Positions 960 to 41,138 of a stretch of 64,000 bases of DNA are shown here, piece after piece; position 1 is the stretch's first letter, and the number at the start of each line of letters is the position of its first letter. The DNA comes from Actinomycetospora sp. TBRC 11914 (lineage in GTDB: Bacteria > Actinomycetota > Actinomycetes > Mycobacteriales > Pseudonocardiaceae). The translations under genes were made by a program, and so were the position numbers. The DNA is taken from contig NZ_JABBND010000023.1 of the NCBI RefSeq assembly GCF_012933465.1, positions 1 through 64,000 of the forward strand, written 5' to 3'. The notes below the pieces were generated by a model. The model was not told the origin of the DNA, ran no database searches, and saw only the letters and a list, made by a program, of their open reading frames with translations.

Positions 960-2210
960 TCAGGACATCTCGGCGAGCAGGTCAGCCATCCGGCTGACCC
1001 CGGTGCGCAGGTCGTCGTCCCCCAGCGCGTAGGAGAGCCGGAAGTAGCCCGGCGTCCCGAAGGCCTCGCCGGGGACGACCGCGACCTCCGCGTGCTCGAG
1101 GATCGCCGCCGCGAGGTCCACCGAGGTCTGCGGGCGCTCCCCGCGCAGCTCGCGCCCGAGCAGCCCCCGCACGTCGGCGTAGGCGTAGAAGGCGCCGCGC
1201 GGCGTCGGGCACTCGACCCCGTCGATGGCCGAGAGCATCTCGACGATCGTGCGGCGGCGGCGGTCGAAGGCGGCGCGCATCTCCTCGACCGCGTCCAGCG
1301 ACCCGGTCACGGCCTCGAGGGCGGCGCGCTGGGCCACGTTGCAGACGTTCGAGGTGACGTGGGACTGCATGTTCGCGGCGGCCTTCACCACGTCGTCGGG
1401 GCCGATGAGCCAGCCCACGCGCCACCCGGTCATCGCGTAGGTCTTCGCGACGCCGTTGACGACGATGCAGCGGTCGGCGACCTCGGGGACCGCGACGGGC
1501 ATCGACACGTGCTCGGCGCCGTCGTAGACGAGGTGCTCGTAGATCTCGTCGGCGATCACCCAGATGCCGTGCTCGGCGGCCCAGCGGCCGATCGCCTCGA
1601 CCAGCTCGCGCGGCGCGACCGCGCCGGTCGGGTTGGAGGGCGAGCACCACAGCAGCACCTTCGTGCGCGGGGTGCGGGCGGCCTCGAGGGCCTCGACGGT
1701 GGGCAGGAAGCCGGTGGAGGCGTCGGTGTCGACCTGCACCGGGTCGCCGCCTGCCATGCGCGCGGCCTCGGGGTAGGTGGTCCAGAACGGGGCGGGGAGC
1801 AGCACCTCGTCGCCCGGGTCGACGATCGTCGCGAACGCCTCGAACACCGCCTGCTTGCCGCCGTTGGTGATGAGGACCTGGGAGGGCCTGACGTCCCACC
1901 CGGAGTCGCGGCGGGTCTTCGCGGCGACGGCCTCGCGCAGCTCGGGGAGCCCGCCCGCGGGGGAGTAGCGGTGGTTCTTCGGGTCGGAGCACGCGGCGAC
2001 GGCGGCGTCGACGACCGGCTGGGGCGTCGGGAAGTCGGGCTCGCCGGCGCCGAAGCCGATGACCGGGCGCCCGGCGGCCTTGAGTGCCTTGGCCTTCGCG
2101 TCCACCGCCAGCGTCGCCGACTCCGCGATGCCCCCGATGCGCGCCGAGATGCGGCGATCGGTGGCGGCAGGCGCGAGGTGGGACGAGCTGGAGGACGTGA
2201 CTGCGGTCAT
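960..2210 (-). CDS. aspC: Pyridoxal-phosphate aminotransferase, class I/II (aspartate aminotransferase type)
   Basis: The 416-aa product is a fold-type I aminotransferase that would exchange an amino group between aspartate (or a similar amino acid) and 2-oxoglutarate in the cytoplasm. Visible family marks are [10 protein letters not shown] near residues 54-63, PSNPTG (Asn193), DEIYEHL with the cofactor-contacting Asp221, and the Schiff-base lysine in [15 protein letters not shown] (Lys256). I chose the ATG at 2210 because the upstream open frame only runs through the divergent tRNA gene. The subclass resembles the aspartate/prephenate aminotransferases of Gram-positive bacteria; exact substrate preference is inferred. 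The gene is divergent from tRNA-Trp. Confidence 0.92.
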
Positions 2211-38377: not shown

Positions 38378-38613
38378 TGGCAGCGGGAACCCCCGCCAGC
38401 GAGCTGCGCGAGCTGACCGGCGAGGAGCTCGTCGCGCGTGCCCGCGAGGCGAAGGCCGAGCTGTTCAACCTCCGGTTCCAGATGGCCACCGGGCAGCTCG
38501 ACAACAACCGCCGGCTGCGGACCGTCCGCCACGACATCGCGCGCATCTACACGGTGATGCGCGAGCGTGAGCTCGGGCTGTCCGTCGCCCCTGACGAGGA
38601 GGGAGCGGCATGA
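38377..38613 (+). CDS. rpmC: 50S ribosomal protein L29
   Basis: L29 (78 aa) is a two-helix protein near the tunnel exit. [19 protein letters not shown] and [18 protein letters not shown] are clear. ATG 38377 shares a base with the rplP stop and the stop overlaps rpsQ by 4 nt. Confidence 0.98.
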
Positions 38614-38987
38614 GCGAGACGACCGCGACCAGCTCGGGGGCGACCGCTCCCGAGCGCGACGAGGAGCAGCAGGTCCGCTCCGAGACCAAGCAGGCCGGCA
38701 AGGCCGAGCAGAGCCCGGTCTCCGCGCGGAACGACGACCGCGGCCTGCGGAAGACCCGCGAGGGCCTCGTCGTCTCGGACAAGATGTCCAAGACGATCGT
38801 CGTCAGCCTCGAGGACCGGGTGAAGCACCCGCGCTACTCGAAGGTCATCCGCCGGACCAAGAAGGTCAAGGCGCACGACGAGCACAACACCGCCGGCCCG
38901 GGCGACCGCGTGCTCCTCATGGAGACCCGGCCGCTCTCGGCGACGAAGCGCTGGCGTCTCGTCGAGGTCCTCGAGAAGGCCAAGTAA
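38610..38987 (+). CDS. rpsQ: 30S ribosomal protein S17 with N-terminal extension
   Basis: The S17 core ([51 protein letters not shown]) starts near residue 46. About 45 preceding Ser/Thr/Glu/Gln-rich residues bring it to 125 aa rather than the usual 80-95. ATG 38610 makes an ATGA overlap with rpmC, which supports the long form. Confidence 0.97.
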
Positions 38988-40306: not shown

Positions 40307-40492
40307 ATGGCGAAGAAGGCACTGGTCAACAAGGCGGCGCGGACCCCGAAGTTCAAGGTCCGCGGCTACACCCGCTGCAACCGCTGCGGGCGTGCGCGCG
40401 CGGTCCTGCGCAAGTTCGGGCTGTGCCGCGTCTGCCTGCGCGAGATGGCGCACCGGGGCGAGCTCCCGGGCGTCAGCAAGTCCTCGTGGTGA
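40307..40492 (+). CDS. rpsN: 30S ribosomal protein S14, zinc-binding short form (type Z)
   Basis: At 61 aa this is the short S14 with a zinc ribbon: [20 protein letters not shown] holds both CxxC pairs. Many actinobacteria also keep a long zinc-free copy elsewhere for zinc starvation. ATG 40307 follows the rplE stop. Its stop overlaps the GTG of the next ORF as GTGA. Confidence 0.99.
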
Positions 40493-40743
40493 GCCGCGTG
40501 CACGACGAGACCGTCGACGCCCTCGTCGAGGAGGAGCTGCCGGGCCGCGCGATCGACCCGCAGCTGTTGACCCTGATCCAGCGCGTCGCCCACCGCGAGC
40601 ACCTGCTCGACGGCACCGCGAGCGCCGCGCACCCCCGCAACGACAACTTGACCCGCCCCGGACGCCGCAGGCCCGCCACGGGGTCGTCCGCCCGCCGGAC
40701 GACCCGGGGTACCACGGCGAGGAAGGTGACCTGGTCGCGATGA
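40489..40743 (+). CDS. Small unknown protein encoded between rpsN and rpsH
   Basis: I do not recognise this 84-aa product. GTG 40489 overlaps the rpsN stop by 4 nt (GTGA) and its TGA overlaps the rpsH ATG by 4 nt (ATGA), so it would be translationally coupled on both sides. The first 55 or so codons all end in G or C while second positions are mixed, the pattern of real genes here. That part ([18 protein letters not shown], then [20 protein letters not shown]) is acidic and helical; the last 30 residues are Arg/Thr/Gly-rich and basic, with weaker codon bias, and overlap a 10-bp hairpin. No signal peptide or membrane helix is seen. It could instead be a degenerate gene or a leader for rpsH. 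Confidence 0.55.
40681..40705 (+). promoter_or_regulatory. Hairpin upstream of rpsH
   Basis: GGGTCGTCCG (40681-40690) pairs perfectly with CGGACGACCC (40696-40705) around a 5-nt loop, 35 nt before rpsH. It could be a regulatory or processing site, perhaps for feedback by a ribosomal protein; this is inference. Confidence 0.45.
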
Positions 40744-41138
40744 CGATGACCGACCCGATCGCGGACATGCTCACGCGCATCCGGAACGCCAACTCGGCGT
40801 TCCACGAGAACGTGACCATGCCGCACAGCAAGCTGAAGGCCCACGTGGCCCAGGTCCTGCTCGAGCAGGGCTACATCGCGGGGTACCGCAGCGAGCCGGC
40901 GGCCGTGGGCAAGAGCCTGGTCGTGGACCTCAAGTACGGACCGAACCGCGAGCGCAGCATCGCCGGCATCAAGCGAATCTCGAAGCCGGGCCTGCGGGTC
41001 TACGCCAAGTCCACCGAGCTCCCCCGCGTGCTCGGCGGCCTCGGCGTCGCGATCATCTCGACGTCCTCGGGCCTGTTGACCGACCGGCAGGCCTACCAGC
41101 GGCGAATGGGCGGGGAAGTCCTCGCCTTCGTCTGGTAG
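40740..41138 (+). CDS. rpsH: 30S ribosomal protein S8
   Basis: S8 (132 aa) binds the central domain of 16S rRNA and represses the spc operon in E. coli. [20 protein letters not shown] and the ending [17 protein letters not shown]...GEVLAFVW are diagnostic. ATG 40740 is used; ATG 40746 is an alternative start two codons later. Confidence 0.98.

Follow-up and report, generated by a model that had tools for sequence, protein, structure and literature searches.

A putative S8 operator before rpsH in Actinomycetes, apparently overprinted by a small gene in Actinomycetospora

Ribosomal protein operators and the spc locus of Actinomycetospora

In E. coli the spc operon has an S8 operator, an mRNA hairpin that mimics the S8 site in helix 21 of 16S rRNA and is located at a translation start in the operon that encodes S8 itself (PMC10931766, PMC4176348). 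S8 acts there at rplE, the third cistron, and the later cistrons appear to be silenced by loss of coupling (PMC10931766). The core of the E. coli S8 site, as given in PMC4176348, consists of the base triple A595-(A596-U644), the pair G597-C643 together with U641, the invariant A642, and position 640.

In Actinobacteria the leaders of L17 and L31 (PMC7247131, in part) resemble the element described here in being conserved cis RNAs that were recognized by comparative genomics beside the gene of the likely ligand, and differ from it in serving other ribosomal proteins. The portion of Table 1 available from that survey by Eckert and Weinberg in 2020 (PMC7247131) lists no S8 leader, and a search of openly available full texts found none in Actinobacteria. 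In Streptomyces ambofaciens antisense RNAs to rpsH and other ribosomal protein genes are reported, and no leader is described in the accessible part of that paper (PMC8388888). The described systems that bear on the locus also include orphan genes, which are likewise found in one genus, without a homologue found elsewhere, and whose orthologous region is noncoding in relatives; the Actinomycetospora gene differs from these in that half of it overprints a conserved regulatory RNA that fixes much of its amino-acid sequence.

The locus lies in a stretch of 64,000 nucleotides from Actinomycetospora sp. TBRC 11914 (hereafter the window), and its features are collected in Table 1. As in the E. coli spc operator, a putative mimic of the S8 site is carried as a hairpin within the S8-encoding operon. 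The window element is not at the rplE start that is typical of E. coli; in Actinomycetes it is found before rpsH, two genes further on. On the comparative evidence given below it is quite probable that this hairpin is the S8 operator of the spc operon, placed at rpsH rather than rplE, and that in Actinomycetospora it has been overprinted by a new small gene. The proposed operator belongs to a familiar type, and what is unusual about it is that a gene appears to overprint it. If much of the class Actinomycetes has an S8-site mimic before rpsH, this mimic would be a candidate for the operator that is missing there. Actinomycetospora would offer a natural case in which a new gene has overprinted a regulatory RNA, and in which selection on RNA and selection on protein can be told apart along the codons of the ORF.

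Table 1. Coordinates of the rpsN-rpsH region in the window; core positions are numbered as in E. coli 16S rRNA
Feature	Position	Strand	Basis or remark
rpsN (S14)	40307..40492	+	named from its sequence
Small ORF, 84 codons and stop	40489..40743	+	open and in frame in 17/17 Actinomycetospora genomes with the locus
Conserved helix, the only part with clear protein-level constraint	40552..40608	+	dN/dS 0.27; AlphaFold2 helix 24-42
RNA element resembling an S8-binding site (extent of R1 match)	40659..40727	+	31.5 bits, E 8.5e-7
Lower stem, 5' arm, CGCCG	40663..40667	+	covariation
S8-like core, 5' side: C594, A595, G596, G597, C598, C599, C600	40668..40674	+	sequence
Apical hairpin, GGGTCGTCC / GGACGACCC, variable between species	40681..40705	+	noticed in the original prediction
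S8-like core, 3' side: G640, U641, A642, C643, C644, A645	40709..40714	+	sequence
Lower stem, 3' arm, CGGCG	40715..40719	+	covariation
Purine-rich region at stem foot before rpsH (AGGAAGGTGA...)	40720..40739	+	sequence
rpsH (S8)	40740..41138	+	PF00410, E 4.7e-48

The small ORF and its conserved helix

The small ORF is confirmed exactly as first described, with both its coordinates and its junctions. The GTG start codon at 40489-40491 lies in the TGGTGA end of rpsN to give a GTGA overlap, the TGA stop codon at 40741-40743 overlaps the ATGACG start of rpsH as ATGA, and the product has 84 amino acids. The original prediction also counted about 55 leading codons that end in G or C; the number is 57, and the run is broken at codon 58 (40660), which is the beginning of the RNA element (model match from 40659). 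The spacer upstream of the element is 166 nt long; none of the 44 A/T bases of the ORF upstream of the element is at codon position 3, and GC1/GC2/GC3 before the element are 0.78/0.49/0.93, as compared to 0.62/0.55/0.96 in rpsN.

A homologue in close relatives with its frame kept, the check that had been proposed for the ORF, is found in all 17 of the Actinomycetospora genomes that have the locus (of 18 genomes in the genus), at the same place and with the GTGA retained. The remaining genome (G013, 59% complete) has no ORF and no rpsH match either. Indels in the linker vary the length of the ORF from 80 to 97 codons across the genus. In the longest, that of locus L017 with 97 codons, the GTGA junction is apparently in tandem duplicate (TGGTGAGC twice, at 1444-1470), adding in-frame codons at the ORF start. 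No second copy of the ORF was seen in the genus, the next best match (E 0.0046) containing three stops.

Outside the genus the ORF was not found among 43 genomes of 41 other genera, where the one match is a repeat. A family-wide profile search at E<=0.01 gave 23 of 390 genomes, of which 17 are those of the genus and six are weak (E 0.003-0.006); the latter are rejected as homologues, none of the six loci having rpsN-rpsH motifs. The one match among the 43 genomes, in genome G047 (E 1.1e-4), is also rejected, being by eye a repeated stretch in an infA-rpsM-rpsK-rpsD region with two TGA codons. At that locus (L018) repeated noncoding units lie by eye between infA, rpsM, rpsK and rpsD and resemble a dispersed repeat in a ribosomal protein operon. 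When 84,980 species genomes were scanned with the aligned family, under the requirement that one of two back-translated peptides be matched exactly, there were 79 pattern matches and among them 15 relatives, all named Actinomycetospora. The ORF appears to be a small gene specific to the genus Actinomycetospora among the genomes searched.

The first half of the ORF product (codons 1-57) has one helix of ~20 residues, and 12 residues across the predicted helix are nearly completely invariant in the genus; AlphaFold2 gives this one helix and is otherwise of low confidence, with a mean pLDDT of 62.5. Nei-Gojobori counts over all 136 pairs, in which the pairwise counts are interdependent, give the helix segment a dN/dS of 0.27-0.28 (pS 0.26-0.27, pN 0.08-0.09), with 0.16 and 0.23 within two clades and 0.30 between them; the corresponding values for rpsN and rpsH are 0.10 and 0.15. 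Over all pairs, dN/dS is 1.6 in the segment that precedes the helix and 1.1 in the one that follows it, and these flanks look neutral. The low ratio expected of a gene is found in the helix, and elsewhere in codons 1-57 it is close to 1 or exceeds it. The claim of genuine coding, borne out by the kept frame and by the protein-level constraint, holds in the latter respect for only about 20 codons. Variation in the helix affects 11 of its 20 third positions, together with 7 first and 3 second positions (third-position excess, P 0.023). This codon-position test is modest, and the evidence for selection on the helix is good, not overwhelming. The helix peptide probably has a function of its own, since constraint acts on its codons in this reading frame and the search for RNA elements revealed none in the segment.

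Searches of Pfam, NCBIfam, PHROGs and PDB chains gave no significant match of the ORF product to a known protein family, the best scattered profile values being 0.01 in PHROGs for 2 of 17 members and 0.055 in Pfam for 1 of 17. In PDB the transcriptional regulator Rv3488 was matched at E 1.5, which was discarded as not significant. The idea that the helix is a duplicate of the S8 N-terminus, both of which by eye begin with DP, was rejected on the ground that the D is not conserved (13 of 17), and programmed -1 frameshifting from rpsN on the ground that no slippery site is seen by eye.

The near-invariant helix residues and the position adjoining both rpsN and rpsH would also suit a ribosome-associated or assembly microprotein, encoded in this operon mainly for its dosage and overlapping the RNA by a separate coincidence; such a role is possible though doubtful for a gene that was found in one genus only, in a single copy, and has no homologue with a known role in the above databases.

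RNA constraint on the ORF tail and the element before rpsH

Codons 58-84 of the ORF, which specify a basic tail (9 K+R, 0 D+E), coincide with the RNA hairpin, and the conserved arms of the latter are nearly frozen at synonymous sites: in alignment columns 70-74 and 90-101 only 2 of 17 third positions vary, nearly regardless of codon position. The apical part between these blocks varies freely (8 of 10 third positions). The two frozen blocks are the signature of constraint on RNA, and the amino-acid sequence of the second half appears to be dictated largely by it. The basic tail had been taken as a sign of an RNA-binding protein. This reading is not supported: the tail is the RNA element spelled in this frame, and the element is conserved in genera without the gene.

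If the tail is explained by RNA and the segments on either side of the helix lack protein-level constraint, it might be supposed that only the RNA matters, the ORF being open by chance in a GC-rich genus and its protein not made or not used. Two arguments first advanced for the ORF are indeed weakened by comparison with other genera, of which 81 of 88 loci were usable and 7 were skipped. The ATGA overlap is present and nearly automatic, rpsH beginning with ATGA in 79 of the 81 loci; the ORF is open, and the same frame ending at the rpsH start is open in 50 of the 81 gaps, including 4 of the 10 above 200 nt. Because both features are common in these loci, overlap and openness alone prove little. 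The full arrangement of TGA stop, register and open frame is seen in 4 of the 81 loci, whose gaps measure 52-133 nt. The weight is carried by conservation in the 17 long gaps, by codon-position bias and by codon-level constraint. The distance from the rpsN stop to the rpsH ATG is 235-286 nt in Actinomycetospora and exceeds that in all 81 loci of other genera (52-223 nt, median 90), yet all 17 frames are open, and the eight values that it takes are all 1 mod 3, that is, in register. The GC3 of 0.93 against a GC2 of 0.49 before the element also speaks against chance opening, as does the fact that the low dN/dS of the helix is confined to its frame; the same bases give 1.65 and 2.50 in the shifted forward frames and 0.76-2.13 on the reverse strand. 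An account by RNA only is therefore unlikely. The rpsN-rpsH gap, described in the original prediction as short in other spc clusters, is not empty and holds the RNA element in the loci examined.

In these noncoding gaps of other genera the element has the form CGCCGnAGGCCC - variable hairpin - GGGAACCnCGGCGAGAAAGG and stands immediately before rpsH. A covariance model, R1, made from 19 loci of other genera and no Actinomycetospora sequence, detects it in 17 of 17 Actinomycetospora loci. It is present in all 30 of the other-genus loci fetched, drawn from 40 other-genus genomes with rpsH (19 loci being in R1 and 11 found by R1), with the core strands 8-62 nt apart (L060 and L069 being mis-anchored). 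Beyond 40659-40727 there is no R1 match in the 64 kb window, and the next match in the whole genome has only E 0.34. No Rfam 15 covariance model reaches its gathering score at the element in the window or at seven loci; one sub-threshold match to a trypanosomatid snoRNA (E 0.19) and a tRNA elsewhere were the only other results. The folding energy of the window stretch is unremarkable for its composition (z -0.59) and gives no support.

At the level of the class, R1 under stricter filters matches 171 of 296 genomes and 77 of 115 genera, and the matches whose neighbourhood was examined, the 30 best and 20 weaker ones, are upstream of rpsH in 50 of 50; in L152 the element is ~100 nt before the S8 start as matched by BLAST. 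The other 125 of the 296 genomes have no match under these filters. A second search of 20 non-matching genomes, with the threshold at E<=0.1, produced matches in 8, of which only 2 are before rpsH; part of the class therefore either lacks the element or has a diverged form of it. A phylum-level search matched 18 of 198 genomes, 11 of them in the class. The loci of the other seven contain no rpsH, and these matches are attributed to chance, so that the claim for the element is limited to the class. In one genus (g87; L113-L115, L119-L124) the apical part is much longer and the match spans 87 nt.

The hairpin structure is supported by compensatory changes. In 88 non-Actinomycetospora loci (81 distinct sequences) 8 of 11 pairs show two-sided changes, where shuffled controls have a mean of 4.4 and 1 of 500 shuffles is as high as 8, and the covariation score is 0.310, where shuffling gives 0.152 and sliding the partners gives no more than 0.084. 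The absolute numbers lean upward, since the model served to fit alignments A4 and A5 and its pairs are thereby favoured. The outermost stem pair fails in 37 of the 81 distinct sequences.

The core of the element agrees with the S8 site of 16S helix 21 at 595, 596-644, 597-643 with 641, A642 and 598-640. A595, G597-C643 and A642 are found in 88 of 88 loci outside Actinomycetospora. The pair 596-644, which is A-U in the E. coli core, is G-C in 87 of these loci and A-U in one. At position 641, 80 loci have A and 8 have U. The pair 598-640 is C-G in 44 loci and U-A in the other 44, with no exception; the E. coli pair is U598-A640. Only one locus of the 88 (L157 of genome G445, 1501-1541, minus strand) has the core AAGU/AUACU, the E. 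coli form. In the window the mRNA core AGGC/GUACC differs from the core of its own 16S helix 21, GCGU/AUACG, and the two have U641-A642-C643 in common (both aligned by eye). The window and all 88 other loci carry the sequence pattern of the helix-21 core for S8, and the element is on the mRNA of the S8-encoding operon, near a start site. Tyr88 and a Ser-Thr-Ser at 107-109 are found in the S8 that the window encodes; for Bacillus S8, PMC4176348 names these residues among those that contact the RNA. The S8-like core and the position before rpsH lend support from sequence to the original suggestion of a leader or regulatory function tied to S8.

In most loci examined the element adjoins rpsN as well as rpsH, and it could accordingly be the site of another ribosomal protein, for example S14 or L5, or a general structure for coupling or mRNA stability. 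The core positions are nevertheless those of the S8 site, with A642 invariant and 598-640 switching between two pairs, and the core of one locus is AAGU/AUACU. The element moreover stays with rpsH in three loci (L063, L100, L141) where the fetched stretch has no rpsN or rplE, the genes of S14 and L5; since it is kept before rpsH in these loci, it seems to belong to rpsH. A ligand or function other than S8 is improbable.

A proposed mechanism and minor observations

The S8 operator proposed here would act as follows. The hairpin, a likely copy of the S8-binding core of 16S helix 21, is set against the ribosome-binding region of rpsH: its stem foot abuts the purine-rich region (40720 onward), which we infer to be the Shine-Dalgarno sequence, and bound S8 would block 30S loading at rpsH. 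Free S8 in excess of 16S rRNA would bind the hairpin, clamp it shut and block initiation at rpsH, and later genes would also be blocked through coupling.

In Actinomycetospora the upstream spacer apparently became coding, giving a gene that spans from the rpsN stop across the hairpin to the rpsH start and whose first half would make the short conserved helical peptide. Ribosomes that come from rpsN and restart at the GTGA by termination-reinitiation would melt the operator, end translation of the small gene at the start codon of rpsH and pass on to the latter. Passage of ribosomes would in this way open the operator, and the output of rpsH would be set by S8 binding against translation of the small gene. 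Translation of an ORF through an operator should disturb the latter, which is awkward for simple repression. It is only tentatively suggested that the operator has been turned into a coding sequence in such a manner that translation opens it and S8 stops the gene, with the helix functional and perhaps acting on S8 or the ribosome. If so, the RNA and the peptide would be the two parts of one feedback device, both derived from the same bases.

The ORF might instead encode a leader peptide that acts by arrest or attenuation and controls rpsH through ribosomes stalled by the nascent chain. This would fit its leader position and conserved peptide stretch but is very improbable, since the distance from helix to stop varies (ORF of 80-97 codons) unlike a fixed tunnel register, so that no conserved peptide at a fixed distance from an arrest site is found, no T run follows the hairpin by eye, and the conserved C-terminal residues are explained by RNA.

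Two minor observations may be added. Loci L063, L100 and L141 all come from one family of the order (f8), and the spc operon is split in them. In the window S17 (38610-38987) apparently has, by eye, what we take to be an N-terminal extension of ~45 residues before the conserved domain.
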